Assembly: GCA_963855995.1 (NCBI GenBank)
Contig: OY979718.1
Location: forward strand, 46,590,559-46,654,558
Reading direction: 5' to 3'
DNA length: 64,000 nucleotides
Origin: Muricea muricata
Taxonomy: Eukaryota > Cnidaria > Anthozoa > Malacalcyonacea > Plexauridae
Below the pieces are notes generated by a model, which made no database searches, had not been told where the DNA came from, and was given only the letters and a program-made list of their open reading frames with translations. This document shows positions 20,895 to 62,400 of this stretch, one piece after another (position 1 is the stretch's first letter; each line of letters starts with the position of its first letter). The position numbers and the translations under genes were made by a program.

Positions 20895-21438
20895 CTATCC
20901 GTGCAGTTTAGAGCTGTATTTGTTCTCATCGTTTTTCTTTACTAAAGTTAAAGGATCTTTCCCATTGGACGGTACAAACACGGGTCTGGTAAGAATGGAA
21001 GACTTTGTACGACCCAATGGTCCAAGAACACTTTGAGTTTGCGTATTTGCTGTTTTTACTATTTTTATATTATCTTGAGATGCGCTAATTAAGGTACCAT
21101 CCTTTTTACTTCTCTGCATCGAATTGTTATTATTAGGCTTGTTTGTTTGCATCAGTCTACTCTCTTTCTTAACAGCCTGCACATATGATAAGCCAACATC
21201 AGAACTGTTTTTTAAGAAGATTGGTTTATCAGTATCCTTCGTTGTTATCTCACGTTTCCTACCGACATGCGCCTTGTTCCATCCTATGGGGTATTTGATT
21301 CTCTCTCTTTCAGATTTTAACCATTTTAGCAAAGGATCAAAATAATCCAACATGGCGTCTACACGAAGGCCTCTTTCTTCTGTCATCTTGTAAAGGATTT
21401 GTGGCCAGGGGTGACTTGAACCAGCAGCTAGAAGTTCT
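20895..21438 (-). CDS. ACE: ACE exon 5: C-terminal helix and unusual basic tail
   Basis: Starts [16 protein letters not shown], the family's conserved GSSRPW region, and ends the M2 domain at PIGW. About 125 further codons, rich in Lys, Ser, Asn and Thr, lead to a TGA at 20895-20897. No hydrophobic anchor is present. Confidence 0.88.
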
Positions 21439-32405: not shown

Positions 32406-35400
32406 CTAGCCACTGAAAGGATTGCACAGAATCTGATCGTTTTTCAAGTAGACGTGTTGAGTAGTGAGGATACCAGCTGTGCTCAAACACTTCGGTTGCG
32501 TCCCAGGCTTGAAGAAATACTGTAAAAATAAATTTAAAAGTTGTGCAAGCTTAAGCGTTCACATTGAGAAACGTTCTCAACACTGATATAGGCAGTATCC
32601 GCCAGCATAAACAGTATAGGCCTGTTTCCACTCGGGATAATTACCTCAAGGATAGGAACGGACAAAAAGGTTGAAATGAGAGGCCACGATGAGAAAGGAA
32701 ACATTCCAATCCATTCTTATGTGCAGAATAATTATCCGGAAAGTAGAAACATTGGCCTATATATGCCCGTAGCATTTTTCAAGATAGCCAAAAATGCGTG
32801 AATACAGTAATGTACAGGATCAATCTCTATAGATCCTCCAAATGAGACGCTTGGGTACGAGACTGCATGGTCATTACACAGGAATGTCACCCACCTAAGT
32901 TAAACTTTACACTTCAGAGCTTAGCTAACGACGAAAGCTGCGCCATCTGCATGTGCCACGTACCGTGTACTTTATCATTCTTTACACTTTTTGTGCGTAT
33001 TTTATAAAAATGTATATTGCATGTGTCAAAATACTTATTCCGTTTTCAGTAAAGAAACGGGTTGATTATAGGGGGAAGACGCGGACAAAAATGATGTCTG
33101 CATCTTGTTGTTCACGTTTTAAATACGCGTAATTGTGTTTTTTTCTTGTCCAAAAAATCCAACGCTTTTTACTAACCTTGAATGTGTTAGGTGTTGGGTG
33201 TTCGACACGTGTGCTGACGAGATCAGCAATCATTGCCCAACCAAAGCCTGTCAATTTACCCGAGTCATATAGTAAAAACACTGGAAATGAATCGTCGCAA
33301 CTTATTTCTTTGGATATGTTGTACCAGTAATGTTGACCTAAATGAACGCATGTTAATGATTAAGATATTGCGTAATATCAATATCAGATTTTGCATAAGA
33401 TTTATAAGTATTGCATAATAATAATAATTATTATTAATATAACTTCATTCCATGCATGAAGACGACAACGTGATTGGCAGGCGGTTGGCATGCCACAGAA
33501 AATATACCAAGTTACCAACTTGTTAAATATACCAAGGGGAGTTAAATATACCCAGTTACCAACTTGTATATATGTGCTATACCCATTCCTATAAAATTCT
33601 GCACCTACGCCATGTGTATACGAGTGCTTGAATACTAAATCGTTTTTTAAAATAAATTTAACGTTAACAGCATTTTAACAATTGGTCCTGCAGGGTAAAT
33701 ACCAACCTAAAACGATCAGTTTTTTATGGTATATTTCATATCGGAATTTTTCTGATTAACAATGCGAAAATTGTTTTACCGTCAATATCGCAACGTTAAT
33801 GAGTTGTGGTAAGAGAACAGAATATGTAAAAGTACCATAATTACTCCGCCTGCCGTAGGCGAGGCGGAGTTTTAAATTCGCCCGGTTTCTGTTTTTTTTT
33901 TCGGTGTCAGAAGTCGGTGCCGCCGCTAGGTAGATACTTTAAGTGACCCCCCATTATAATGTATCAGCATAGTTTATATACTAACATATACTTAAACATA
34001 CATAGATATCCTTAGTACTCCTTAGCCCTCCTTAGACTTCCTTAGCTATACCTACCGCTCCTTTCACATGCTTACCAGTCCTCAAGTATTCTTACACCTC
34101 CCTAGACCTCCCTAGACCTCCTTAGCCCTCCTTAGACTTCCTTAGCTATACCTACCGCTCCTTTCACATGCTTACCAGTCCTCAAGTATTCTTACACCTC
34201 CCTAGACCTCCCTAGACCTCCTTAGCCCTCCTTAGACTTCCTTAGCTATACCTACCGCTCCTTTCACATGCTTACCAGTCCTCAAGTATTCTTACACCTC
34301 CCTAGACCTCCCTAGACCTCCTTAGCCCTCCTTAGACTTCCTTAGCTATACCTACCGCTCCTTTCACATGCTTACCAGTCCTCAAGTATTCTTACATCTC
34401 CCTAGTCCTCCCTAGACCTCCTTAGCCCTCCTTAGACTTCCTTAGCTATACCTACCGCTCCTTTCACATGCTTAGCAGTCCTCAAGTATTCTTACACCTC
34501 CCTAGACCTCCCTAGACCTCCTTAGCCCTCCTTAGACTTCCTTAGCTATACCTACCGCTCCTTTCACATGCTTACCAGTCCTCAAGTATTCTTACACCTC
34601 CCTAGACCTCCCTAGACCTCCTTAGCCCTCCTTAGACTTCCTTAGCTATACCTACCGCTCCTTTCACATGCTTACCAGTCCTCAAGTATTCTTACACCTC
34701 CCTAGACCTCCCTAGACCTCCTTAGCCCTCCTTAGGCTTCCCTAGCTATACCTACCGCTCCTTTCACATGCTTACCAGTCCTCAAGTATTCTTACACCTC
34801 CCTAGACCTCCTTAGCCCTCCTTAGACTTCCTTAGCTATACCTACCGCTCCTTTCACATGCTTACCAGTCCTCAAGTATTCTTACACCTCCCTAGACCTC
34901 CCTAGACCTCCTTAGCCCTCCTTAGACTTCCTTAGCTATACCTACCGCTCCTTTCACATGCTTTCCAGTCCTCAAGTATTCTTACACCTCCCTAGACCTC
35001 CCTAGACCTCCTTAGCCCTCCTTAGACTTCCTTAGCTATACCTACCGCTCCTTTCACATGCTTAGCAGTCCTCAAGTATTCTTACACCTCCCTAGACCTC
35101 CCTAGACCTCCTTAGCCCTCCTTAGACTTCCTTAGCTATACCTACCGCTCCTTTCACATGCTTACCAGTCCTCAAGTATTCTTACACCTCCCTAGACCTC
35201 CCTAGACCTCCTTAGCCCTCCTTAGACTTCCTTAGCTATACCTACCGCTCCTTTCACATGCTTACCAGTCCTCAAGTATTCTTACACCTCCCTAGACCTC
35301 CCTAGACCTCCTTAGCCCTCCTTAGACTTCCTTAGCTATACCTACCGCTCCTTTCACATGCTTACCAGTCCTCAAGTATTCTTACACCTCCCTAGACCTC

Positions 35401-38400
35401 CCTAGACCTCCTTAGCCCTCCTTAGACTTCCTTAGCTATACCTACCGCTCCTTTCACATGCTTACCAGTCCTCAAGTATTCTTACACCTCCCTAGACCTC
35501 CCTAGACTTCCTTAGCCCTCCTTAGACTTCCCTAGCTATACCTACCGCTCCTTTCACATGCTTACCAGTCCTCAAGTATTCTTACACCTCCCTAGACCTC
35601 CTTAGCCCTCCTTAGACTTCCTTAGCTATACCTACCGCTCCTTTCACATGCTTTCCAGTCCTCAAGTATTCTTACACCTCCCTAGACCTCCCTAGACCTC
35701 CTTAGCCCTCCTTAGACTTCCTTAGCTATACCTACCGCTCCTTTCACATGCTTACCAGTCCTCAAGTATTCTTACACCTCCCTAGACCTCCCTAGACCTC
35801 CTTAGCCCTCCTTAGACTTCCTTAGCTATACCTACCGCTCCTTTCACATGCTTACCAGTCCTCAAGTATTCTTACACCTCCCTAGACCTCCCTAGACCTC
35901 CTTAGCCCTCCTTAGACTTCCTTAGCTATACCTACCGCTCCTTTCACATGCTTACCAGTCCTCAAGTATTCTTACACCTCCCTAGACCTCCCTAGACCTC
36001 CTTAGCCCTCCTTAGACTTCCCTAGCTATACCTACCGCTCCTTTCACATGCTTACCAGTCCTCAAGTATTCTTACACCTCCCTAGACCTCCTTAGCCCTC
36101 CTTAGACTTCCTTAGCTATACCTACCGCTCCTTTCACATGCTTACCAGTCCTCAAGTATTCTTACACCTCCCTAGACCTCCCTAGACCTCCTTAGCCCTC
36201 CTTAGACTTCCTTAGCTATACCTACCGCTCCTTTCACATGCTTACCAGTCCTCAAGTATTCTTACACCTCCCTAGACCTCCCTAGACCTCCTTAGCCCTC
36301 CTTAGACTTCCCTAACTATACCTACCGCTCCTTTCACATGCTTACCAGTCCTCAAGTATTCTTACACCTCCCTAGACCTCCTTAGCCCTCCTTAGACTTC
36401 CTTAGCTATACCTACCGCTCCTTTCACATGCTTACCAGTCCTCAAGTATTCTTACACCTCCCTAGACCTCCCTAGACCTCCTTAGCCCTCCTTAGACTTC
36501 CCTAGCTATACCTCCTGCTCCTTTCACATGCTTACCAGTCCTCAAGTATTCTTACACCTCCCTAGACCTCCTTAGCCCTCCTTAGACTTCCTTAGCTATA
36601 CCTACCGCTCCTTTCACATGCTTACCAGTCCTCAAGTATTCTTACACCTCCCTAGACCTCCCTAGACTTCCTTAGCCCTCCTTAGACTTCCCTAGCTATA
36701 CCTACCGCTCCTTTCACATGCTTACCAGTCCTCAAGTATTCTTACACCTCCCTAGACCTCCTTAGCCCTCCTTAGACTTCCTTAGCTATACCTACCGCTC
36801 CTTTCACATGCTTTCCAGTCCTCAAGTATTCTTACACCTCCCTAGACCTCCCTAGACCTCCTTAGCCCTCCTTAGACTTCCTTAGCTATACCTACCGCTC
36901 CTTTCACATGCTTACCAGTCCTCAAGTATTCTTACACCTCCCTAGACCTCCCTAGACCTCCTTAGCCCTCCTTAGACTTCCCTAGCTATACCTACCGCTC
37001 CTTTCACATGCTTACCAGTCCTCAAGTATTCTTACACCTCCCTAGACCTCCTTAGCCCTCCTTAGACTTCCTTAGCTATACCTACCGCTCCTTTCACATG
37101 CTTACCAGTCCTCAAGTATTCTTACACCTCCCTAGACCTCCCTAGACCTCCTTAGCCCTCCTTAGACTTCCTTAGCTATACCTACCGCTCCTTTCACATG
37201 CTTACCAGTCCTCAAGTATTCTTACACCTCCCTAGACCTCCCTAGACCTCCTTAGCCCTCCTTAGACTTCCCTAACTATACCTACCGCTCCTTTCACATG
37301 CTTACCAGTCCTCAAGTATTCTTACACCTCCCTAGACCTCCTTAGCCCTCCTTAGACTTCCTTAGCTATACCTACCGCTCCTTTCACATGCTTACCAGTC
37401 CTCAAGTATTCTTACACCTCCCTAGACCTCCCTAGACCTCCTTAGCCCTCCTTAGACTTCCCTAGCTATACCTCCTGCTCCTTTCACATGCTTACCAGTC
37501 CTCAAGTATTCTTACACCTCCCTAGACCTCCTTAGCCCTCCTTAGACTTCCTTAGCTATACCTACCGCTCCTTTCACATGCTTACCAGTCCTCAAGTATT
37601 CTTACACCTCCCTAGACCTCCCTAGACTTCCTTAGCCCTCCTTAGACTTCCCTAGCTATACCTACCGCTCCTTTCACATGCTTACCAGTCCTCAAGTATT
37701 CTTACACCTCCCTAGACCTCCTTAGCCCTCCTTAGACTTCCTTAGCTATACCTACCGCTCCTTTCACATGCTTTCCAGTCCTCAAGTATTCTTACACCTC
37801 CCTAGACCTCCCTAGACCTCCTTAGCCCTCCTTAGACTTCCTTAGCTATACCTACCGCTCCTTTCACATGCTTACCAGTCCTCAAGTATTCTTACACCTC
37901 CCTAGACCTCCCTAGACCTCCTTAGCCCTCCTTAGACTTCCTTAGCTATACCTACCGCTCCTTTCACATGCTTACCAGTCCTCAAGTATTCTTACACCTC
38001 CCTAGACCTCCCTAGACCTCCTTAGCCCTCCTTAGACTTCCTTAGCTATACCTACCGCTCCTTTCACATGCTTACCAGTCCTCAAGTATTCTTACACCTC
38101 CCTAGACCTCCCTAGACCTCCTTAGCCCTCCTTAGACTTCCCTAGCTATACCTACCGCTCCTTTCACATGCTTACCAGTCCTCAAGTATTCTTACACCTC
38201 CCTAGACCTCCTTAGCCCTCCTTAGACTTCCTTAGCTATACCTACCGCTCCTTTCACATGCTTACCAGTCCTCAAGTATTCTTACACCTCCCTAGACCTC
38301 CCTAGACCTCCTTAGCCCTCCTTAGACTTCCTTAGCTATACCTACCGCTCCTTTCACATGCTTACCAGTCCTCAAGTATTCTTACACCTCCCTAGACCTC

Positions 38401-41400
38401 CCTAGACCTCCTTAGCCCTCCTTAGACTTCCTTAGCTATACCTACCGCTCCTTTCACATGATTACCAGTCCTCAAGTATTCTTACACCTCCCTAGACCTC
38501 CCTAGACCTCCTTAGCCCTCCTTAGACTTCCCTAACTATACCTACCGCTCCTTTCACATGCTTACCAGTCCTCAAGTATTCTTACACCTCCCTAGACCTC
38601 CTTAGCCCTCCTTAGACTTCCTTAGCTATACCTACCGCTCCTTTCACATGCTTTCCAGTCCTCAAGTATTCTTACACCTCCCTAGACCTCCCTAGACCTC
38701 CTTAGCCCTCCTTAGACTTCCTTAGCTATACCTACCGCTCCTTTCACATGCTTACCAGTCCTCAAGTATTCTTACACCTCCCTAGACCTCCCTAGACCTC
38801 CTTAGCCCTCCTTAGACTTCCCTAGCTATACCTACCGCTCCTTTCACATGCTTACCAGTCCTCAAGTATTCTTACACCTCCCTAGACCTCCTTAGCCCTC
38901 CTTAGACTTCCTTAGCTATACCTACCGCTCCTTTCACATGCTTACCAGTCCTCAAGTATTCTTACACCTCCCTAGACCTCCCTAGACCTCCTTAGCCCTC
39001 CTTAGACTTCCTTAGCTATACCTACCGCTCCTTTCACATGCTTACCAGTCCTCAAGTATTCTTACACCTCCCTAGACCTCCCTAGACCTCCTTAGCCCTC
39101 CTTAGACTTCCCTAACTATACCTACCGCTCCTTTCACATGCTTACCAGTCCTCAAGTATTCTTACACCTCCCTAGACCTCCTTAGCCCTCCTTAGACTTC
39201 CTTAGCTATACCTACCGCTCCTTTCACATGCTTACCAGTCCTCAAGTATTCTTACACCTCCCTAGACCTCCCTAGACCTCCTTAGCCCTCCTTAGACTTC
39301 CCTAGCTATACCTCCTGCTCCTTTCACATGCTTACCAGTCCTCAAGTATTCTTACACCTCCCTAGACCTCCTTAGCCCTCCTTAGACTTCCTTAGCTATA
39401 CCTACCGCTCCTTTCACATGCTTACCAGTCCTCAAGTATTCTTACACCTCCCTAGACCTCCCTAGACTTCCTTAGCCCTCCTTAGACTTCCCTAGCTATA
39501 CCTACCGCTCCTTTCACATGCTTACCAGTCCTCAAGTATTCTTACACCTCCCTAGACCTCCTTAGCCCTCCTTAGACTTCCTTAGCTATACCTACCGCTC
39601 CTTTCACATGCTTTCCAGTCCTCAAGTATTCTTACACCTCCCTAGACCTCCCTAGACCTCCTTAGCCCTCCTTAGACTTCCTTAGCTATACCTACCGCTC
39701 CTTTCACATGCTTACCAGTCCTCAAGTATTCTTACACCTCCCTAGACCTCCCTAGACCTCCTTAGCCCTCCTTAGACTTCCTTAGCTATACCTACCGCTC
39801 CTTTCACATGCTTACCAGTCCTCAAGTATTCTTACACCTCCCTAGACCTCCCTAGACCTCCTTAGCCCTCCTTAGACTTCCTTAGCTATACCTACCGCTC
39901 CTTTCACATGCTTACCAGTCCTCAAGTATTCTTACACCTCCCTAGACCTCCCTAGACCTCCTTAGCCCTCCTTAGACTTCCCTAGCTATACCTACCGCTC
40001 CTTTCACATGCTTACCAGTCCTCAAGTATTCTTACACCTCCCTAGACCTCCTTAGCCCTCCTTAGACTTCCTTAGCTATACCTACCGCTCCTTTCACATG
40101 CTTACCAGTCCTCAAGTATTCTTACACCTCCCTAGACCTCCCTAGACCTCCTTAGCCCTCCTTAGACTTCCTTAGCTATACCTACCGCTCCTTTCACATG
40201 CTTACCAGTCCTCAAGTATTCTTACACCTCCCTAGACCTCCCTAGACCTCCTTAGCCCTCCTTAGACTTCCTTAGCTATACCTACCGCTCCTTTCACATG
40301 ATTACCAGTCCTCAAGTATTCTTACACCTCCCTAGACCTCCCTAGACCTCCTTAGCCCTCCTTAGACTTCCCTAACTATACCTACCGCTCCTTTCACATG
40401 CTTACCAGTCCTCAAGTATTCTTACACCTCCCTAGACCTCCTTAGCCCTCCTTAGACTTCCTTAGCTATACCTACCGCTCCTTTCACATGCTTACCAGTC
40501 CTCAAGTATTCTTACACCTCCCTAGACCTCCCTAGACCTCCTTAGCCCTCCTTAGACTTCCTTAGCTATACCTACCGCTCCTTTCACATGCTTACCAGTC
40601 CTCAAGTATTCTTACACCTCCCTAGACCTCCCTAGACCTCCTTAGCCCTCCTTAGACTTCCTTAGCTATACCTACCGCTCCTTTCACATGCTTACCAGTC
40701 CTCAAGTATTCTTACACCTCCCTAGACCTCCCTAGACCTCCTTAGCCCTCCTTAGACTTCCTTAGCTATACCTACCGCTCCTTTCACATGCTTACCAGTC
40801 CTCAAGTATTCTTACATCTCCCTAGTCCTCCCTAGACCTCCTTAGCCCTCCTTAGACTTCCTTAGCTATACCTACCGCTCCTTTCACATGCTTAGCAGTC
40901 CTCAAGTATTCTTACACCTCCCTAGACCTCCCTAGACCTCCTTAGCCCTCCTTAGACTTCCTTAGCTATACCTACCGCTCCTTTCACATGCTTACCAGTC
41001 CTCAAGTATTCTTACACCTCCCTAGACCTCCCTAGACCTCCTTAGCCCTCCTTAGACTTCCTTAGCTATACCTACCGCTCCTTTCACATGCTTACCAGTC
41101 CTCAAGTATTCTTACACCTCCCTAGACCTCCCTAGACCTCCTTAGCCCTCCTTAGGCTTCCCTAGCTATACCTACCGCTCCTTTCACATGCTTACCAGTC
41201 CTCAAGTATTCTTACACCTCCCTAGACCTCCTTAGCCCTCCTTAGACTTCCTTAGCTATACCTACCGCTCCTTTCACATGCTTACCAGTCCTCAAGTATT
41301 CTTACACCTCCCTAGACCTCCCTAGACCTCCTTAGCCCTCCTTAGACTTCCTTAGCTATACCTACCGCTCCTTTCACATGCTTTCCAGTCCTCAAGTATT

Positions 41401-44400
41401 CTTACACCTCCCTAGACCTCCCTAGACCTCCTTAGCCCTCCTTAGACTTCCTTAGCTATACCTACCGCTCCTTTCACATGCTTAGCAGTCCTCAAGTATT
41501 CTTACACCTCCCTAGACCTCCCTAGACCTCCTTAGCCCTCCTTAGACTTCCTTAGCTATACCTACCGCTCCTTTCACATGCTTACCAGTCCTCAAGTATT
41601 CTTACACCTCCCTAGACCTCCCTAGACCTCCTTAGCCCTCCTTAGACTTCCTTAGCTATACCTACCGCTCCTTTCACATGCTTACCAGTCCTCAAGTATT
41701 CTTACACCTCCCTAGACCTCCCTAGACCTCCTTAGCCCTCCTTAGACTTCCTTAGCTATACCTACCGCTCCTTTCACATGCTTACCAGTCCTCAAGTATT
41801 CTTACACCTCCCTAGACCTCCCTAGACCTCCTTAGCCCTCCTTAGACTTCCTTAGCTATACCTACCGCTCCTTTCACATGCTTACCAGTCCTGAAGTATT
41901 CTTACACCTCCCTAGACCTCCCTAGACTTCCTTAGCCCTCCTTAGACTTCCCTAGCTATACCTACCGCTCCTTTCACATGCTTACCAGTCCTCAAGTATT
42001 CTTACACCTCCCTAGACCTCCTTAGCCCTCCTTAGACTTCCTTAGCTATACCTACCGCTCCTTTCACATGCTTTCCAGTCCTCAAGTATTCTTACACCTC
42101 CCTAGACCTCCCTAGACCTCCTTAGCCCTCCTTAGACTTCCTTAGCTATACCTACCGCTCCTTTCACATGCTTACCAGTCCTCAAGTATTCTTACACCTC
42201 CCTAGACCTCCCTAGACCTCCTTAGCCCTCCTTAGACTTCCTTAGCTATACCTACCGCTCCTTTCACATGCTTACCAGTCCTCAAGTATTCTTACACCTC
42301 CCTAGACCTCCCTAGACCTCCTTAGCTCTCCTTAGACTTCCTTAGCTATACCTACCGCTCCTTTCACATGCTTACCAGTCCTCAAGTATTCTTACACCTC
42401 CCTAGACCTCCCTAGACCTCCTTAGCCCTCCTTAGACTTCCCTAGCTATACCTACCGCTCCTTTCACATGCTTACCAGTCCTCAAGTATTCTTACACCTC
42501 CCTAGACCTCCTTAGCCCTCCTTAGACTTCCTTAGCTATACCTACCGCTCCTTTCACATGCTTACCAGTCCTCAAGTATTCTTACACCTCCCTAGACCTC
42601 CCTAGACCTCCTTAGCCCTCCTTAGACTTCCTTAGCTATACCTACCGCTCCTTTCACATGCTTACCAGTCCTCAAGTATTCTTACACCTCCCTAGACCTC
42701 CCTAGACCTCCTTAGCCCTCCTTAGACTTCCCTAACTATACCTACCGCTCCTTTCACATGCTTACCAGTCCTCAAGTATTCTTACACCTCCCTAGACCTC
42801 CTTAGCCCTCCTTAGACTTCCTTAGCTATACCTACCGCTCCTTTCACATGCTTACCAGTCCTCAAGTATTCTTACACCTCCCTAGACCACCCTAGACCTC
42901 CTTAGCCCTCCTTAGACTTCCCTAGCTATACCTCCTGCTCCTTTCACATGCTTACCAGTCCTCAAGTATTCTTACACCTCCCTAGACCTCCTTAGCCCTC
43001 CTTAGACTTCCTTAGCTATACCTACCGCTCCTTTCACATGCTTACCAGTCCTCAAGTATTCTTACACCTCCCTAGACCTCCCTAGACTTCCTTAGCCCTC
43101 CTTAGACTTCCCTAGCTATACCTACCGCTCCTTTCACATGCTTACCAGTCCTCAAGTATTCTTACACCTCCCTAGACCTCCTTAGCCCTCCTTAGACTTC
43201 CTTAGCTATACCTACCGCTCCTTTCACATGCTTTCCAGTCCTCAAGTATTCTTACACCTCCCTAGACCTCCCTAGACCTCCTTAGCCCTCCTTAGACTTC
43301 CTTAGCTATACCTACCGCTCCTTTCACATGCTTACCAGTCCTCAAGTATTCTTACACCTCCCTAGACCTCCCTAGACCTCCTTAGCCCTCCTTAGACTTC
43401 CCTAGCTATACCTACCGCTCCTTTCACATGCTTACCAGTCCTCAAGTATTCTTACACCTCCCTAGACCTCCTTAGCCCTCCTTAGACTTCCTTAGCTATA
43501 CCTACCGCTCCTTTCACATGCTTACCAGTCCTCAAGTATTCTTACACCTCCCTAGACCTCCCTAGACCTCCTTAGCCCTCCTTAGACTTCCTTAGCTATA
43601 CCTACCGCTCCTTTCACATGCTTACCAGTCCTCAAGTATTCTTACACCTCCCTAGACCTCCCTAGACCTCCTTAGCCCTCCTTAGACTTCCCTAACTATA
43701 CCTACCGCTCCTTTCACATGCTTACCAGTCCTCAAGTATTCTTACACCTCCCTAGACCTCCTTAGCCCTCCTTAGACTTCCTTAGCTATACCTACCGCTC
43801 CTTTCACATGCTTACCAGTCCTCAAGTATTCTTACACCTCCCTAGACCTCCCTAGACCTCCTTAGCCCTCCTTAGACTTCCCTAGCTATACCTCCTGCTC
43901 CTTTCACATGCTTACCAGTCCTCAAGTATTCTTACACCTCCCTAGACCTCCTTAGCCCTCCTTAGACTTCCTTAGCTATACCTACCGCTCCTTTCACATG
44001 CTTACCAGTCCTCAAGTATTCTTACACCTCCCTAGACCTCCCTAGACTTCCTTAGCCCTCCTTAGACTTCCCTAGCTATACCTACCGCTCCTTTCACATG
44101 CTTACCAGTCCTCAAGTATTCTTACACCTCCCTAGACCTCCTTAGCCCTCCTTAGACTTCCTTAGCTATACCTACCGCTCCTTTCACATGCTTTCCAGTC
44201 CTCAAGTATTCTTACACCTCCCTAGACCTCCCTAGACCTCCTTAGCCCTCCTTAGACTTCCTTAGCTATACCTACCGCTCCTTTCACATGCTTACCAGTC
44301 CTCAAGTATTCTTACACCTCCCTAGACCTCCCTAGACCTCCTTAGCCCTCCTTAGACTTCCTTAGCTATACCTACCGCTCCTTTCACATGCTTACCAGTC

Positions 44401-50400: not shown

Positions 50401-53400
50401 CTTTCACATGCTTACCAGTCCTCAAGTATTCTTACACCTCCCTAGACCTCCTTAGCCCTCCTTAGACTTCCTTAGCTATACCTACCGCTCCTTTCACATG
50501 CTTACCAGTCCTCAAGTATTCTTACACCTCCCTAGACCTCCCTAGACCTCCTTAGCCCTCCTTAGACTTCCCTAGCTATACCTCCTGCTCCTTTCACATG
50601 CTTACCAGTCCTCAAGTATTCTTACACCTCCCTAGACCTCCTTAGCCCTCCTTAGACTTCCTTAGCTATACCTACCGCTCCTTTCACATGCTTACCAGTC
50701 CTCAAGTATTCTTACACCTCCCTAGACCTCCGTAGACCTCCTTAGCCCTCCTTAGACTTCCTTAGCTATACCTACCGCTCCTTTCACATGCTTACCAGTC
50801 CTCAAGTATTCTTACACCTCCCTAGACCTCCCTAGACCTCCTTAGCCCTCCTTAGACTTCCTTAGCTATACCTACCGCTCCTTTCACATGCTTACCAGTC
50901 CTCAAGTATTCTTACACCTCCCTAGACCTCCCTAGACCTCCTTAGCCCTCCTTAGACTTCCTTAGCTATACCTACCGCTCCTTTCACATGATTACCAGTC
51001 CTCAAGTATTCTTACACCTCCCTAGACCTCCCTAGACCTCCTTAGCCCTCCTTAGACTTCCTTAGCTATACCTACCGCTCCTTTCACATGCTTACCAGTC
51101 CTCAAGTATTCTTACACCTCCCTAGACCTCCTTAGCCCTCCTTAGACTTCCTTAGCTATACCTACCGCTCCTTTCACATGCTTACCAGTCCTCAAGTATT
51201 CTTACACCTCCCTAGACCTCCCTAGACCTCCTTAGCCCTCCTTAGACTTCCTTAGCTATACCTACCGCTCCTTTCACATGCTTACCAGTCCTCAAGTATT
51301 CTTACACCTCCCTAGACCTCCTTAGCCCTCCTTAGACTTCCTTAGCTATACCTACCGCTCCTTTCACATGCTTACCAGTCCTCAAGTATTCTTACACCTC
51401 CCTAGACCTCCCTAGACCTCCTTAGCCCTCCTTAGACTTCCTTAGCTTTACCTACCGCTCCTTTCACATGATTACCAGTCCTCAAGTATTCTTACACCTC
51501 CCTAGACCTCCCTAGACCTCCTTAGCCCTCCTTAGACTTCCTTAGCTATACCTACCGCTCCTTTCACATGCTTACCAGTCCTCAAGTATTCTTACACCTC
51601 CCTAGACCTCCTTAGCCCTCCTTAGACTTCCTTAGCTATACCTACCGCTCCTTTCACATGCTTACCAGTCCTCAAGTATTCTTACACCTCCCTAGACCTC
51701 CCTAGACCTCCTTAGCCCTCCTTAGACTTCCTTAGCTTTACCTACCGCTCCTTTCACATGATTACCAGTCCTCAAGTATTCTTACACCTCCCTAGACCTC
51801 CCTAGACCTCCTTAGCCCTCCTTAGACTTCCTTAGCTATACCTACCGCTCCTTTCACATGCTTAGCAGTCCTCAAGTATTCTTACACCTCGCTAGACCTC
51901 CTTAGACCTCCTTAGTCCTCCTTAGATTTCCTTAGCTATACCTACCGCTTCTTTCACATGTTTAGCAGTCCTCAAGTATTCTTACACCTCCCTAGACCTC
52001 CTTAGCCCTCCTTAGACTTCCTTAGCTATACCTACCGCTCCTTTCACATGCTTAGCAGTCCTGAAGTATTCTTACACCTCCCTAGACCTCCCTAGACCTC
52101 TTTAGCCTTCCTTAGACTTCCTTAGCTATACTTACCTCTCCCTTCACATGCTTGGCAGTCCTCAAGTATTGTTGCACCTCCCTAGACCTTCTTAGGCCTC
52201 GTGAGACTTCCTTAGCTGTACTTAGCTAATCTTGGAACTGCCTTGACATGCTTAGTACTGCTCATATATTCTTACAACTCCTTGGACCTTCTTAGTTTTC
52301 CTTAGACTTCCTTTGATATACTTGTCACTCTCTTCAGATGCTTAGCACTGCTCAAATATTCTTACACCTTTTTAGACCTCCTTAGGCCTCCTTAGCTATA
52401 GTTACTACTCCCTTGACAAGCTTAGCACTGCTCAAATAATCGTAGACCTCTTTAGGCCTACTTGGGCCTGTTTAGCCCTCCTTAGGTCTACTTATACCTT
52501 CTGAGGTATACTTCGCGCTCTTTGGATATGCTTAGTACTGCTGAGATAGCACTGATATTCTTAGACCACGTTAGACATCGTTAGGCCTAGTTGGACCACG
52601 TTAGGCATGCTTAGCTATAGTTAGCACTTCTTCGGTATGTTTAGGACCATGTCAATGTTCTTTTGCCTGAGTAGATACATGAACGTATTTTGTCAAGAGG
52701 TAGTAACACATCCTTCAGCATTTTTAAAACTTCTAACGGTATCTTATTGCTTTGCTTGGATTTGATGTGAAATAAAAGGTATGTATGTCATTGTATATTG
52801 TGATATTTTATGATGTAAAGTATCATATTGTTTTTATAGGAATTGCAGTTTAAAACGGATGATCTCGCCGTTAAATTATTGTGATATTGCCGTTTGTAAG
52901 AGTTATCATGTAACAAGTTTTCTTCTTTCCAGCATTTCAAAAACCTTTTTACGATTTTGTTTGTAATGAAAGATCTTTAAGGTACCCTGTGAGGAGAGCG
53001 TTGTTTTCCTCCAGTGCTGTGATAGAAAGGAAAATAAGACTCTGCTCACAGGGTAACCTGAACGATATTGATACAAAGTGTATTAGGATGATGAACGATA
53101 TTATGATGTACTGGAATTATGGGCATTGTAACACTGACAAACTCACAGATCACAATAATGTCACGATGAGATTAATTTATCACATTTATTTGACAATTTC
53201 TATAAAAAATTATACTTTATATCATAAAATAACACATAAACGCATACCTACCTTTATATCACACTAATACGCAACGTTTGCCGTCATTGTTACTGTTTAC
53301 AGTTGCGTAAATCCCATGAAGGTATGGGGGGGGTCGGCTCACCCCCCCCCCCCCAAGACTAAAATGAACAGTTTTGTCGGGCAAAACTAAGTGTTTTGCC

Positions 53401-56400
53401 GGGCAAAAAGCAACCAAGGGTTTTAAAGAAAATTTAATCTGTTTAGGTAAAAAAATACTAAATTACGAAGTTGATGCAATATAATGCGTGACAAAATGAT
53501 TTTTTTTACTTTTATTTATTTGACAATAACTTTTATTTGTGAGTAATATCTAATTAGTGTGGGCGTGGCTTTTCCAACCACGCCCTTTTGTTGGGAAAAA
53601 TTAGTTCCCCCCCCCCAATCTTGAGACCCAAGTTACGCCCCTGACTGTTTAAAATGATCAAAACTGAGTCCGTTTCACGTGTAAGAAACGATTATTTGTA
53701 TCATTTGAAACCCTAAACAAGCTTCTACGCCACGAAATTGGTATGTTTTATAACAAATAATAAAACGTGCATCAAAAAATGATATTTGCGGTCGGTCCGG
53801 TTTTGCATCTAAATGGTTTCCGCTTCAAACTGTCAAACGTCACGCTACAAACATAAAAAACTCGCGAATATGTTTGCGCTTGGTGCTTCGACGCAAATTG
53901 CTGTACCGTTAGAAGATTTAACATGATGAAGCATCACGCATGTGTTACTTCCTCTCGATAATATACGTTCCATCCCTAGGAGATGTAAGAACATCTGAGT
54001 CACTGAGTGTCCTAGGCATGTCTAGGGAGTGCTAAGTATAGCTACGAAGGGCGAAGTAGGTTTAAGGCAAAACTATATTCAGATTAATTTAACGCAGAGA
54101 AAAACGAAAAATCCGTTGTCTCGAGCGGGATTCGAAAATATTTCGGGCATTTAAATTGGATAAGACTCGCTACCAATCACAGCTGGCTGGCTTGGCTCGA
54201 TAGCTATATTTGTAGAGCAGCGGTCTAATATCCCGACGATGAGAGTTCGAATACAACTCGAAACAACAAATTTTTCGTTCTTCTCTGCAGTGTAAGATTA
54301 ATATGAATCTAGTTTTTCATATCTCTGATGATGGTTTTGAAATAGGTTTAACGACGTGTAAGAAAGTTTGAGCAGTGCTAAGTATAGCTAAGAAAGTCTA
54401 AGGAGGGCTAAGCAGGTCTAAGGAGGTCTAGGGAGGTGTAAGAATACTTGACGACTGCTAAGCACGTGAAAAGAGCGAAAAGTAAAGCTAAGGGAGTGCA
54501 AGGAGGTCTAGGGAGGTCTAGGGAAATGTAAGAATACTTGAGGACTGCTAAGCATGTGAAAGGAGCGGTAGGTATAGCTAAGGAAGTCTAAGGAGGGCTA
54601 AGGAGGTCTACGGAGGTGTAAGAATATTTGAGGACTGCTAAGCATTTGAAAGGAGCGGTAGGTATAGCTAAGGAAGTCTAAGGAGGGCTAAGGAGATCTA
54701 GGGAGGTCTAGGGAGGTGTAAGAATACTTGAGGACTGGTAAGCATGTGAAAGGAGCGGTAGGTATAGCTAAGGAAGTCTAAGGAGGGCTAAGGAGGTCTA
54801 GGGAGGTCTAGGGAGGTGTAAAAATACTTGAGGACTGGTAAGCATGTGAAAGGAGCGGTAGGTATAGCTAAGGAAGTCTAAGGAGGGCTAAGGAGGTCTA
54901 GGGAGGTGTAAGAATACTTGAGGACTGGTAAACATGTGAAAGGAGCGGTAGGTATAGCTAAGGAGGTCTAAGGAGGGCTAAGGAGGTCTAGGGAGGTCTA
55001 GGGAGGTGTAAGAATACTTGAGGACTGCTAAGCATGTGAAAGGAGCGGTAGGTATAGCTAAGGAAGTCTAAGGAAGGCTAAGGAGGTCTAGGGAGGTATA
55101 GGGAGGTGTAAGAATACTTGAGGACTGGTAAGCATGTGAAAGGAGCGGTAGGTATAGCTAAGGAAGTCTAAGGAGGGCTAAGGAGGTCTAGGGAGGTGTA
55201 AGAATACTTGAGGACTGGTAAGCATGTGAAAGGAGCGGTAGGTATAGCTAGGGAAGTCTAAGGAGGGCTAAAGAGGTCTAGGGAGGTCTAGGGAGGTGTA
55301 AGAATACTTGAGGACTGGTAAGCATGTGAAAGGAGCGGTAGGTATAGCTAAGGAAGTCTAAGGAGGGCTAAGAAGGTCTAGGGAGGTCTAGGGAGGTGTA
55401 AGAATACTTGAGGACTGGTAAGCATGTGAAAGGAGCGGTAGGTATAGCTAAGGAAGTCTAAGGAGGGCTAAGGAGGTCTAGGGAGGTCTAGGGAGGTGTA
55501 AGAATACTTGAGGACTGGAAAGCATGTGAAAGGAGCGGTAGGTATAGCTAAGGAAGTCTAAGGAGGGCTAAGGAGGTCTAGGGAGGTCTAGGGAGGTGTA
55601 AGAATACTTGAGGACTGGTAAGCATGTGAAAGGAGCGGTAGGTATAGCTAAGGAAGTCTAAGGAGGGCTAAGGAGGTCTAGGGAGGTCTAGGGAGGTGTA
55701 AGAATACTTGAGGACTGGTAAGCATGTGAAAGGAGCGGTAGGTATAGCTAAGGAAGTCTAAGGAGGGCTAAGGAGGTCTAGGGAGGTCTAGGGAGGTGTA
55801 AGAATACTTGAGGACTGGAAAGCATGTGAAAGGAGCGGTAGGTATAGCTAAGGAAGTCTAAGGAGGGCTAAGGAGGTCTAGGGAGGTCTAGGGAGGTCTA
55901 GGGAGGTCTAGGGAGGTGTAAGAATACTTGAGGACTGGAAAGCATGTGAAAGGAGCGGTAGGTATAGCTAAGGAAGTCTAAGGAGGGCTAAGGAGGTCTA
56001 GGGAGGTCTAGGGAGGTGTAAGAATACTTGAGGACTGGTAAGCATGTGAAAGGAGCGGTAGGTATAGCTAAGGAAGTCTAAGGAGGGCTAAGGAGGTCTA
56101 GGGAGGTGTAAGAATACTTGAGGACTGGTAAGCATGTGAAAGGAGCGGTAGGTATAGCTAAGGAAGTCTAAGGAGGGCTAAGGAGGTCTAGGGAGGTCTA
56201 GGGAGGTCTAGGGAGGTGTAAGAATACTTGAGGACTGGTAAGCATGTGAAAGGAGCGGTAGGTATAGCTAAGGAAGTCTAAGGAGGGCTAAGGAGGTCTA
56301 GGGAGGTGTAAGAATACTTGAGGACTGGTAAGCATGTGAAAGGAGCGGTAGGTATAGCTAAGGAAGTCTAAGGAGGGCTAAGGAGGTCTAGGGAGGTCTA

Positions 56401-59400
56401 GGGAGGTGTAAGAATACTTGAGGACTGGAAAGCATGTGAAAGGAGCGGTAGGTATAGCTAAGGAAGTCTAAGGAGGGCTAAGGAGGTCTAGGGAGGTCTA
56501 GGGAGGTGTAAGAATACTTGAGGACTGGTAAGCATGTGAAAGGAGCGGTAGGTATAGCTATGGAAGTCTAAGGAGGGCTAAGGAGGTCTAGGGAGGTCTA
56601 GGGAGGTGTAAGAATACTTGAGGACTGGTAAGCATGTGAAAGGAGCGGTAGGTATAGCTAAGGAAGTCTAAGGAGGGCTAAGGAGGTCTAGGGAGGTCTA
56701 GGGAGGTGTAAGAATACTTGAGGACTGGAAAGCATGTGAAAGGAGCGGTAGGTATAGCTAAGGAAGTCTAAGGAGGGCTAAGGAGGTCTAGGGAGGTCTA
56801 GGGAGGTCTAGGGAGGTGTAAGAATACTTGAGGACTGGAAAGCATGTGAAAGGAGCGGTAGGTATAGCTAAGGAAGTCTAAGGAGGGCTAAGGAGGTCTA
56901 GGGAGGTCTAGGGAGGTGTAAGAATACTTGAGGACTGGTAAGCATGTGAAAGGAGCGGTAGGTATAGCTAAGGAAGTCTAAGGAGGGCTAAGGAGGTCTA
57001 GGGAGGTGTAAGAATACTTGAGGACTGGTAAGCATGTGAAAGGAGCGGTAGGTATAGCTAAGGAAGTCTAAGGAGGGCTAAGGAGGTCTAGGGAGGTCTA
57101 GGGAGGTGTAAGAATACTTGAGGACTGGTAAGCATGTGAAAGGAGCGGTAGGTATAGCTAAGGAAGTCTAAGGAGGGCTAAGGAGGTCTAGGGAGGTCTA
57201 GGGAGGTGTAAGAATACTTGAGGACTGGTAAGCATGTGAAAGGAGCGGTAGGTATAGCTAAGGAAGTCTAAGGAGGGCTAAGGAGGTCTAGGGAGGTCTA
57301 GGGAGGTGTAAGAGTACTTGAGGACTGGTAAGCATGTGAAAGGAGCGGTAGGTATAGCTAAGGAAGTCTAAGGAGGTCTAGGGAGGTCTAGGGAGGTGTA
57401 AGAATACTTGAGGACTGGTAAGCATGTGAAAGGAGCGGTAGGTATAGCTAAGGAAGTCTAAGGAGGGCTAAGGAGGTCTAGGGAGGTGTAAGAATACTTG
57501 AGGACTGGTAAGCATGTGAAAGGAGCGGTAGGTATAGCTAAGGAAGTCTAAGGAGGGCTAAGGAGGTCTAGGGAGGTCTAGGGAGGTGTAAGAATACTTG
57601 AGGACTGGTAAGCATGTGAAAGGAGCGGTAGGTATAGCTAAGGAAGTCTAAGGAGGTCTAGGGAGGTCTAGGGAGGTGTAAGAATACTTGAGGACTGGTA
57701 AGCATGTGAAAGGAGCGGTAGGTATAGCTAAGGAAGTCTAAGGAGGGCTAAGGAGGTCTAGGGAGGTCTAGGGAGGTGTAAGAATACTTGAGGACTGGAA
57801 AGCATGTGAAAGGAGCGGTAGGTATAGCTAAGGAAGTCTAAGGAGGGCTAAGGAGGTCTAGGGAGGTCTAGGGAGGTGTAAGAATACTTGAGGACTGGTA
57901 AGCATGTGAAAGGAGCGGTAGGTATAGCTAAGGAAGTCTAAGGAGGGCTAAGGAGGTCTAGGGAGGTGTAAGAATACTTGAGGACTGGTAAGCATGTGAA
58001 AGGAGCGGTAGGTATAGCTAGGGAAGCCTAAGGAGGGCTAAGGAGGTCTAGGGAGGTCTAGGGAGGTGTAAGAATACTTGAGGACTGCTAAGCATGTGAA
58101 AGGAGCGGTAGGTATAGCTAAGGAAGTCTAAGGAGGGCTAAGGAGGTCTAGGGAGGTCTAGGGAGGTGTAAGAATACTTGAGGACTGGTAAGCATGTGAA
58201 AGGAGCGGTAGGTATAGCTAAGGAAGTCTAAGGAGGGCTAAGGAGGTCTAGGGAGGTGTAAGAATACTTGAGGACTGGTAAGCATGTGAAAGGAGCGGTA
58301 GGTATAGCTAAGGAAGTCTAAGGAGGGCTAAGGAGGTCTAGGGAGGTCTAGGGAGGTGTAAGAATACTTGAGGACTGGAAAGCATGTGAAAGGAGCGGTA
58401 GGTATAGCTAAGGAAGTCTAAGGAGGGCTAAGGAGGTCTAGGGAGGTCTAGGGAGGTGTAAGAATACTTGAGGACTGGTAAGCATGTGAAAGGAGCGGTA
58501 GGTATAGCTAAGGAAGTCTAAGGAGGGCTAAGGAGGTCTAGGGAGGTCTAGGGAGGTGTAAGAATACTTGAGGACTGGTAAGCATGTGAAAGGAGCGGTA
58601 GGTATAGCTAAGGAAGTCTAAGGAGGGCTAAGGAGGTCTAGGGAGGTCTAGGGAGGTGTAAGAATACTTGAGGACTGGAAAGCATGTGAAAGGAGCGGTA
58701 GGTATAGCTAAGGAAGTCTAAGGAGGGCTAAGGAGGTCTAGGGAGGTCTAGGGAGGTCTAGGGAGGTGTAAGAATACTTGAGGACTGGAAAGCATGTGAA
58801 AGGAGCGGTAGGTATAGCTAAGGAAGTCTAAGGAGGGCTAAGGAGGTCTAGGGAGGTCTAGGGAGGTGTAAGAATACTTGAGGACTGGTAAGCATGTGAA
58901 AGGAGCGGTAGGTATAGCTAAGGAAGTCTAAGGAGGGCTAAGGAGGTCTAGGGAGGTGTAAGAATACTTGAGGACTGGTAAGCATGTGAAAGGAGCGGTA
59001 GGTATAGCTAAGGAAGTCTAAGGAGGGCTAAGGAGGTCTAGGGAGGTCTAGGGAGGTCTAGGGAGGTGTAAGAATACTTGAGGACTGGAAAGCATGTGAA
59101 AGGAGCGGTAGGTATAGCTAAGGAAGTCTAAGGAGGGCTAAGGAGGTCTAGGGAGGTCTAGGGAGGTGTAAGAATACTTGAGGACTGGTAAGCATGTGAA
59201 AGGAGCGGTAGGTATAGCTAAGGAAGTCTAAGGAGGGCTAAGGAGGTCTAGGGAGGTGTAAGAATACTTGAGGACTGGTAAGCATGTGAAAGGAGCGGTA
59301 GGTATAGCTAAGGAAGTCTAAGGAGGGCTAAGGAGGTCTAGGGAGGTCTAGGGAGGTCTAGGGAGGTGTAAGAATACTTGAGGACTGGTAAGCATGTGAA

Positions 59401-62400
59401 AGGAGCGGTAGGTATAGCTAAGGAAGTCTAAGGAGGGCTAAGGAGGTCTAGGGAGGTGTAAGAATACTTGAGGACTGGTAAGCATGTGAAAGGAGCGGTA
59501 GGTATAGTTAAGGAAGTCTAAGGAGGGCTAAGGAGGTCTAGGGAGGTCTAGGGAGGTGTAAGAATACTTGAGGACTGGTAAGCATGTGAAAGGAGCGGTA
59601 GGTATAGCTAAGGAAGTCTAAGGAGGGCTAAGGAGGTCTAGGGAGGTCTAGGGAGGTGTAAGAATACTTGAGGACTGGTAAGCATGTGAAAGGAGCGGTA
59701 GGTATAGCTAAGGAAGTCTAAGGAGGGCTAAGGAGGTCTAGGGAGGTCTAGGGAGGTGTAAGAGTACTTGAGGACTGGTAAGCATGTGAAAGGAGCGGTA
59801 GGTATAGCTAAGGAAGTCTAAGGAGGTCTAGGGAGGTCTAGGGAGGTGTAAGAATACTTGAGGACTGGTAAGCATGTGAAAGGAGCGGTAGGTATAGCTA
59901 AGGAAGTCTAAGGAGGTCTAGGGAGGTCTAGGGAGGTGTAAGAATACTTGAGGACTGGTAAGCATGTGAAAGGAGCGGTAGGTATAGCTAAGGAAGTCTA
60001 AGGAGGGCTAAGGAGGTCTAGGGAGGTCTAGGGAGGTGTAAGAATACTTGAGGACTGGAAAGCATGTGAAAGGAGCGGTAGGTATAGCTAAGGAAGTCTA
60101 AGGAGGGCTAAGGAGGTCTAGGGAGGTCTAGGGAGGTGTAAGAATACTTGAGGACTGGTAAGCATGTGAAAGGAGCGGTAGGTATAGCTAAGGAAGTCTA
60201 AGGAGGGCTAAGGAGGTCTAGGGAGGTGTAAGAATACTTGAGGACTGGTAAGCATGTGAAAGGAGCGGTAGGTATAGCTAGGGAAGCCTAAGGAGGGCTA
60301 AGGAGGTCTAGGGAGGTCTAGGGAGGTGTAAGAATACTTGAGGACTGCTAAGCATGTGAAAGGAGCGGTAGGTATAGCTAAGGAAGTCTAAGGAGGGCTA
60401 AGGAGGTCTAGGGAGGTCTAGGGAGGTGTAAGAATACTTGAGGACTGGTAAGCATGTGAAAGGAGCGGTAGGTATAGCTAAGGAAGTCTAAGGAGGGCTA
60501 AGGAGGTCTAGGGAGGTCTAGGGAGGTGTAAGAATACTTGAGGACTGCTAAGCATGTGAAAGGAGCGGTAGGTATAGCTAAGGAAGTCTAAGGAGGGCTA
60601 AGGAGGTCTAGGGAGGACTAGGGAGATGTAAGAATACTTGAGGACTGGTAAGCATGTGAAAGGAGCGGTAGGTATAGCTAAGGAAGTCTAAGGAGGTCTA
60701 GGGAGGACTAGGGAGATGTAAGAATACTTGAGGACTGGTAAGCATGTGAAAGGAGCGGTAGGTATAGCTAAGGAAGTCTAAGGAGGGCTAAGGAGGTCTA
60801 GGGAGGTCTAGGGAGGTGTAAGAATACTTGAGGACTGGTAAGCATGTGAAAGGAGCGGTAGGTATAGCTAAGGAAGTCTAAGGAGGGCTAAGGAGGTCTA
60901 GGGAGGTCTAGGGAGGTGTAAGAATACTTGAGGACTGGTAAGCATGTGAAAGGAGCGGTAGGTATAGCTAAGGAAGTCTAAGGAGGGCTAAGGAGTACTA
61001 AGGATATCTATGTATGTTTAAGTATATGTTAGTATATAAACTATGCTGATACATTATAATGGGGGGTCACTTAAAGTATCTACCCGCCGCTAATGGGTGA
61101 TACCGCTGGGCACAAGCCGCGTGAGCCGACCTAAACACGTCGTTTAAACTCAATTTCCAGCGGAATATGTCAACAAAACACGCATTTTAACATGTATGCT
61201 AGAACATCTAAACCGCAAGAAGGTTTTACGTGCAAAAATTCTCATGCAAAATGTTTTAAAACGACAAATTCCACCGCGAAACTTTACCGAGGAGCGATGA
61301 GAGCGTGCTTCCGTCATTTTCTGTTGTATTCCTACTTTTAAGGAAATTTAGAAATTTCTACACAAGAATCAAACGCAAATTCTACTGAAATATCTACATA
61401 CAAAACACAATTTTTAACATGTAATAGTCAACAAAAAGGGACAGGAAGGTTCTTTATCAAAAAATTGCTCCAGAAATGTTTTAAAACGGCAAATAAAAGG
61501 TAAGAGACATTTTACATTCCAATTCCAGAAATACATATGTTATTCTAAAGTTCCCAACAAATTATATCGTGGAGACTTCAGACTTAATAGCTTAGTCTAA
61601 TTTTTAATTTTTGTTGTTTTTATGAGCGATTTTAATACTTGTTTTGTTAGAACGTCAACAGTCATAGCTGAGTGCGGCATTTTAGTCTTTATCTATAGTA
61701 TTTATAAATTATAATAACTTTCTTTATAAAAAAATTGACATGTTTATTGTTGAATAGTTGACTCAGAGAAAGGATTTCAAATTGGATATCACAGAAAATA
61801 CAGATCACAGAAATACTTTTAAGTCGATTACTGTAAAGATTGTTGCTATAATTATTAAAATAGCAAGAAAAAACTCAAAAATGCAAAATAAAAAAAAGAA
61901 CAAAATTTAACTTAAATTTAGTAAAATTTCAACTGGCACTTTCTTAATTTGCCAAAACTTTATCAGACACCCTGCCTATATACCAATGTTTTAACTGACA
62001 CCTGAAGCTTTCTGGAAGTAAATACTTTGTCAGCATGTCGAAAGACAACTTGTGGCCATGTACAGGTCAAAGTCTAACCGACATCTTGTCAACAAGCCAA
62101 AAGCCTAACTGATATCTTTTCAACAAGTGAAAAGCCTTACCGACATCTTGTCAACAAGCCAAAAGCCTTACCGGCATCTTGTCAACAAGCCAAAAGCCTA
62201 ACCAACATCTTTTCAACAAGCCAAAAGCCTAACTGGCATCTTGTCAACAAGCCAAAAACCTAACCGACATCTTGTCAACATGCCAAAAATCTAACTAGGA
62301 GCATATCAACATGTCAAAAGTCCATTTCAAAGCTTGTCCACATATTAAAAGACTAACTCAGATCTTATCAACATGTCAAAAGTCTGCTCGAAAACTTGTC

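Follow-up and report, generated by a model that had tools for sequence, protein, structure and literature searches.

A foldback-type transposon with long inverted satellite arms, and its family, in the genome of Muricea muricata

A stretch of 64,000 bp from Muricea muricata (the window; assembly GCA_963855995.1, contig OY979718.1, here C3:46590559-46654558, in a genome of 453 Mb in 74 contigs) was found to carry an inserted unit of 27,156 bp at window positions 33929-61084. By structure the element is of the foldback type: it has long inverted ends of tandem repeats, it is flanked by a target-site duplication and matched by an empty site, and its arm lengths and middles vary among copies. We consider it likely that this is a non-autonomous, foldback-type cut-and-paste transposon whose arms grow by block duplication, the left arm of the window copy having tripled, most probably after insertion. 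An earlier note, made from the letters of the window, had described a foldback-type transposon present as one insertion and tying a satellite to a DNA transposon, and copies in the same genome back this description.

Structure and insertion site of the window element

The element begins and ends with an 82-bp terminal inverted segment, at 33929-34010 on the plus strand (beginning GGTAGATACTTTAAGTGACCCCCC) and at 61003-61084 on the minus strand. Directly on each side lies the octamer CGCCGCTA (33921-33928 and 61085-61092), an exact 8-bp duplication. The perfect inverted identity of the two ends extends over 368 bp, comprising the 82-bp unique end and the first satellite units; with the duplication, this upholds the earlier delimitation of 33929-61084 as one inserted unit. 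Inside, a C-rich satellite arm leads into a 2.0-kb core, which is followed by the satellite in inverted orientation. Marking of k-mers in steps of 50 bp placed the left arm at 34011-52378 (18.4 kb, plus strand, C-rich) and the right arm at 54379-61002 (6.6 kb, minus strand), while Tandem Repeats Finder set the edges at 34018-52396 and 54382-60995. Both arms claimed in the earlier note were thus confirmed, with measured lengths slightly below the 18.6 and about 6.7 kb given there. The satellite, referred to as type A, has a base period of 10 bp and higher units of 100, 290 and 390 bp, the last in the left arm only.

When the window flanks were joined with one octamer (320 bp), the resulting sequence was found intact elsewhere in nine copies at 100% identity and full score (40 of 1,880 candidates scored), which we interpret as a paralogous empty site. 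The right flank aligned to the same target repeat over 1.93 kb (40 of 3,133 candidates scored, the window among them); against nine other copies it was 100% identical over the first 573 bp and 98-99% identical thereafter, and about 90 bp were absent from most of them. As the near flank is almost identical to its relatives, the insertion is taken to be young. In the window the target repeat forms a left piece of about 91 bp (33838-33928, plus strand, outer edge approximate) and a right piece of about 1.93 kb (61085-63020, plus strand), to which two other copies align over flank positions 1-1935 and 1-1929. First-pass searches brought up 1,880 and 3,133 candidates for this target, which marks it as a high-copy repeat. 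It ends in a hairpin (CTCCGCCT..AGGCGGAG) and contains, at 62069-62412, a 31-bp minisatellite, and we take it to be a Helitron-like candidate.

Copies, ends and satellites across the genome

A genome-wide search with a 33-bp end pattern, allowing up to three mismatches, yielded 49 matches (25 forward and 24 reverse), and the reversed control yielded none. A laxer 21-bp pattern added one close end (C5:9604618) and nine weaker matches, compared with three in the control, and established no related autonomous family in the genome. The family, with the end motif GGTAGATACTTTAAGTGACCC, is thus a low-copy one, with about 50 ends in the 453-Mb genome. Sixteen further loci were read whole or largely, 14 with both ends and two with one, and the other copies were assessed by their ends. 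Pairing of ends gave 22 loci, window included; the ends at C2:63.83, C12:11.02, C9:6.68, C3:48.4 and C5:9604618 and two ends on C13 were left unpaired.

In all 22 paired loci a plus end is followed by a minus end. Exact 8-bp duplications flank 16 of them and seven of eight bases agree in two more, so that the family has transposed with an 8-bp duplication. Among 462 mismatched flank pairings, used as a chance control, eight of eight bases agreed in four and seven of eight in seven, all of them between loci in the same target repeat. Element lengths at the 18 loci that have a duplication are 4.6, 5.7, 6.0, 7.0, 8.2, 9.2, 9.2, 10.9, 11.8, 15.6 and 15.7 kb at the smaller end of the range and 27.2, 29.0, 29.9, 29.9, 49.2, 78.1 and 172.6 kb at the larger. 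The genome search for the terminal segment that the earlier note had proposed therefore returned other copies with 8-bp duplications and varied arm lengths.

Alignment of 49 ends, from which the damaged end at C3:56.23 was left out, showed that approximately the first 45 bp are common to all and about 82 bp to most. At least three different satellites stand behind these same 45-82-bp ends. Type A arms, with the 10-bp base, were found in the window, e2, e4, e5, e7, e8, e9, e11-e13 and others, type B arms, with the 9-bp base ATCTTTGTA, in e1, e3, e6, e14, e16 and the copies C4 and C7, and a third satellite with the base CTATACACAC in C1:38.05 and C1:46.56. The middles of type B copies vary: by Pfam, e1 contains a reverse-transcriptase piece and e14 a gypsy-like integrase, and e3 and e6 contain inverted copies of unidentified frames, the e6 piece being without a Pfam match. 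The left end of e1 (L039) and an end on C12 (L066) have flank and inner sequence in common, which perhaps reflects one older subfamily lacking the satellite there, or a duplication.

The largest copy, C2:63521621-63694210 (172.6 kb), has GATCGACA on both sides and showed type-A satellite at all 11 points sampled (300 bp each). About its core match (63555208-63555451), the two samples to the left had one orientation and the nine to the right the opposite, which implies, by sampling only, arms of about 33 and 138 kb. The copies C7 (49.2 kb, duplication TGACTTCG) and C4 (78.1 kb, duplication CAGCGCAC) have type-B ends, and their nine samples consisted of a 25-bp satellite wholly in eight and partly in one; this satellite is also present in the middle of e14.

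Arm growth and alternative explanations

The left arm of the window element consists of about three near-identical blocks of 5.4-6.4 kb. At a lag of 6,420 the arm matches itself over 4,789 bp with 12 mismatches, and two further self-matches occur at lags of 5,430 (3,609 bp, 14 mismatches) and 5,440 (2,200 bp, 12 mismatches). Block duplication is thus present in the assembly: 94% of the left-arm bases lie in exact repeats of at least 1 kb and 82% in repeats of at least 2 kb, against 0% in the right arm, and elsewhere such repeats of at least 1 kb occurred only in the left arm of e13 (33% of its bases). The longest exact repeat within the window left arm is 3,367 bp, whereas exact matches from one element to another, among the 10 type-A elements compared, do not exceed 555 bp. 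Subtraction of two blocks (18.4 - 6.4 - 5.4) leaves about 6.5 kb, close to the 6.6 kb of the right arm. Because the block amplification of the left arm has no counterpart in the right one, the window element probably grew by block duplication from about 15 kb, rather than moving as a 27-kb unit.

Arm length also varies between copies. The arms of the 10 type-A copies measured range from 0.47 to 18.4 kb alongside a conserved core, and in the sister copies e5 and e7, with cores 99.75% identical, the left arms measure 0.47 and 4.3 kb, a difference of 3.85 kb. In nine type-A elements, with 20 differences, the paired ends were more alike than after shuffling of the pairs (8 of 5,000 shuffles were as low), which common descent explains as well as exchange between arms would. 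The earlier note had offered movement as a giant unit and growth after insertion as alternatives; the threefold blocks and the e5/e7 pair favour growth and, judged from the sequence, after insertion is most likely its place in the order of events.

Several observations weigh against the reading of a transposon with growing satellite arms. Four of the 22 paired loci (e1, e9, e10 and C3:56.23) have no duplication; at C3:56.23 the right end is damaged at its tip, and in e9, as in e10, the left and right flanks are inverted copies of each other (800 bp counted for e9, about 200 bp only for e10). The long copies C2:54.83, C1:38.05 and C1:46.56 are not mostly satellite: the first (29.9 kb) has the type-A 30-mer near both ends only, and in the other two the satellite occupies about the first kilobase where read, with other sequence at all six inner samples, one of which held a DUF1759 piece; there is a break about 100 bp into the left arm of C1:38.05. 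Comparison of coordinates by eye placed no transposase domain of the MULE, hAT or KDZ type inside the 22 spans. This applies to 103 matches to the MULE transposase PF10551 (150 of 269 candidates scored), 150 to the hAT dimerisation domain (150 of 1,175) and 66 to the KDZ transposase (132 of 132), and an autonomous MULE partner, or a KDZ partner, may exist elsewhere. Furthermore, cut-and-paste transposition removes the donor, which would allow for movement of a 27-kb unit, and near-identical multi-kb blocks would also be expected from an over-expanded assembly.

The first of these last two points leads to the strongest competitor, namely that the window element moved as a 27-kb unit from a donor whose arms were already this long and which was lost by excision. 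No near-identical donor was found, the nearest core being 98.55% identical, and large moves have a precedent in the Drosophila foldback elements reported to carry hundreds of kb, those of the Ising TE mobilising such lengths between them (PMC6431247). The sister copies C4 and C7, moreover, occupy different sites, each flanked by an exact duplication, and have the satellite of their middles in common. On the other hand, block duplication of at least 1 kb is confined to one arm, and the left arm is about nine times as long in one copy as in another whose core is 99.75% identical. We therefore regard movement of the complete unit as unlikely.

Less probable again is that copies in the shared target spread through movement of the target repeat, with the foldback element as its passenger. 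Seven loci (the window, e3, e6, e11, e13, C4:4.09 and the C13 ends, the mirrored C13 ends being counted once) occupy the same position in the target repeat, a high-copy repeat with near-identical copies. The copies e11 and e13 have the same target variant, octamer and arm type, and may derive from one insertion. However, four combinations of octamer and arm type exist among the paired loci (CGCCGCTA with type A, CAGCGCTC both with type A and with type B, and CAGCGCAC with type B), which means at least four separate insertions; the unpaired C13 ends have a further octamer, TGCCGCTC. Site preference in DNA transposons has precedents in Dada and Pokey (PMC3706591).

A genuine insertion whose satellite copy number was over-expanded by the assembly is a slightly more doubtful account still. 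The near-identical multi-kb blocks would suit it, as would patterns that assemblers can make: e9 (L047, C4:5579967-5584127) lies at the centre of a palindrome whose flanks are mirrored at 100% over 800 bp counted of 873, the core not being mirrored, and two type-B ends on C13 (L067 and L068, C13:6440984 and C13:6513528), 72.5 kb apart and facing outward, are identical and inverted both in their flanks (500 bp) and on the inside (8 gap columns in 997 aligned bases), forming a large palindrome or an assembly fold. Nevertheless, over-expansion is superfluous for the 1-10-kb arms of other copies, the window blocks recur at several lags rather than one, and even the longest spans are bounded by exact duplications.

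The type-A 30-mer had 1,480 matches genome-wide (549 forward, 931 reverse). Among the 100 listed, in contig order, all lay inside three C2 elements and none on C1 (124 Mb), and 663 of the 1,480 were inside 17 examined loci, window included; the remainder could stem from copies read in part, above all C2:63.5. A pre-existing satellite array, invaded by the transposon or captured between two independent ends, is thus very improbable, for although several satellites behind the same ends would allow arrays to come from outside, no type-A satellite was found outside elements among the matches listed or in the rest of the window, the examined loci hold the share just given, and the joined flanks form an intact, unrelated repeat.

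According to the favoured reading of a foldback transposon with growing arms, a transposase made elsewhere would recognise the terminal 45-82 bp, and the unit would be inserted by an 8-bp staggered cut. The inverted tandem repeats behind the ends would then grow and shrink by duplicating blocks of hundreds of bases to several kb, perhaps through unequal sister exchange, replication slippage or break-induced copying. The window copy would have started with arms of about 6.5 kb each, its left arm tripling most likely after insertion, and the same growth carried further could have led to the 172.6-kb copy. Different satellites would have originated, or been taken up, next to these common ends. 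A more far-reaching proposal, which we put forward tentatively and rate at a little below an even chance, is that the 45-82-bp end module acts as a satellite nursery. At least three arm satellites that are unrelated to one another (with bases of 10 bp, 9 bp and a different 10 bp) would owe their founding or capture to it, as would a fourth satellite in the middle. Single insertions would be inflated by block duplication in place to 50, 78 and 173 kb with ends and duplication intact, turning a dispersed and possibly still mobile element into a megasatellite locus, and one position of a young high-copy repeat would be preferred.

Known foldback elements, coding capacity and neighbouring features

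The origin of new satellite DNAs is a long-standing question, and Tetris has shown that foldback ends can seed satellites. Tetris, from Drosophila virilis, has terminal inverted repeats (TIRs) of up to 1,735 bp, a 220-bp unit and 8-10-bp duplications, and it founded a satellite (PMC4079207). Like the present element it is non-autonomous, with tandem repeats in long inverted ends, a variable middle and repeats that formed satellite-like arrays; unlike it, its arrays are of kb size, whereas here the arms reach 18.4 kb, and by sampling far more, within elements whose ends and duplications are intact. Galileo, of the P superfamily, has TIRs of 18-1,250 bp in the species surveyed, which vary partly by internal tandem repeats (PMC3573991). 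It has the foldback form in common with our element, as well as tandem repeats that expand independently in each arm, but it makes 7-bp duplications and its P-type transposase is known. The Tm1 Mutator/Foldback family of root-knot nematodes (PMC3169594) likewise has composite ends with 13-15-bp tandem repeats in variable number, and ends common to different element groups; its duplications, however, are mostly of 9 bp, one element measures 1,080 bp and some members encode a putative transposase. Rehavkus and other MULEs (PMC6446971) resemble the family in their 8-11-bp duplications and long TIRs, Rehavkus with a minisatellite before the 3' TIR, but they are coding elements with TIRs of 14-500 bp, and no MULE domain was found inside the present elements.

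The longest foldback arm in the open-access passages and listings examined, a scope outside which the older FB and TU papers fall, was 1,735 bp, and the earlier claim that the window arms, at 18.4 and 6.6 kb, exceed published ones holds within it. The kind of element is therefore already known, while its scale, the several satellites behind one end and the visible steps of growth are without counterpart in the open-access literature examined. Drosophila FB and sea urchin TU have inverted ends of short tandem repeats, promiscuous middles and 8-9-bp duplications, with arm lengths between hundreds of bases and a few kb. A single genome, that of M. muricata, offers the element together with paralogous empty sites, with sister copies and with arms whose lengths extend from 0.5 kb to more than 100 kb (the latter by sampling), so that growth could be dated against insertion. 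If borne out at the level of reads, 172.6 kb would be a size reached by a foldback unit between intact duplicated octamers. The family also makes up a naturally occurring collection of very long inverted repeats.

The 2-kb core of the window element (52379-54378, plus strand) has no recognised protein and is 95.5-98.55% identical to the cores of eight other copies. It contains an open reading frame (ORF) of 92 aa (52989-53267, plus strand), whose counterpart in four other copies extends over 150 aa. Neither the 92- nor the 150-aa frame had a Pfam match, even at E-value limits of 1 and 10, and a search with the core frame gave 21 matches (26 candidates scored) at family loci only. The frame was therefore rejected as a transposase remnant, being without a Pfam match and confined to the family; a faint likeness to hAT C-termini may exist. 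A duplication of 8 bp fits the ranges of MULE (8-11 bp), hAT (8 bp) and Zisupton (8 bp), and the P superfamily is also compatible with it, while the 7-bp duplication of Galileo differs from the 8 bp seen in 16 of the 22 loci. The ranges are those reported for hAT and Zisupton (PMC12730594) and for MULEs (PMC6446971).

Among the long copies, the one at C1:46558142-46587107 (29.0 kb; L010, L060, L093-L095; duplication GAGTATGC) has open frames, including one of 324 aa near its right end, and a cysteine-rich piece, and it is possibly gene-carrying or autonomous. As an autonomous element it was set aside, as none of the 324-aa frame and other pieces scored above the curated Pfam cut-off, nor did two of the pieces in NCBIfam.

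Rfam gave no matches in the window or in L010, L060 and L089. The window also contains exons of an ACE-like peptidase M2 on the minus strand (20895-26816) and, upstream of the element, a frame with a PPP1R35 C-terminal domain (30730-31245). On the 19-kb contig C74 lies a COX1 frame (C74:4213-5553) in which TGG occurs 13 times and TGA is absent, a pattern that may point to a non-bilaterian animal, and a second COX1 copy, with one stop, lies on the large contig C1 (C1:38414782-38416095), 0.33 Mb from a member of the family.

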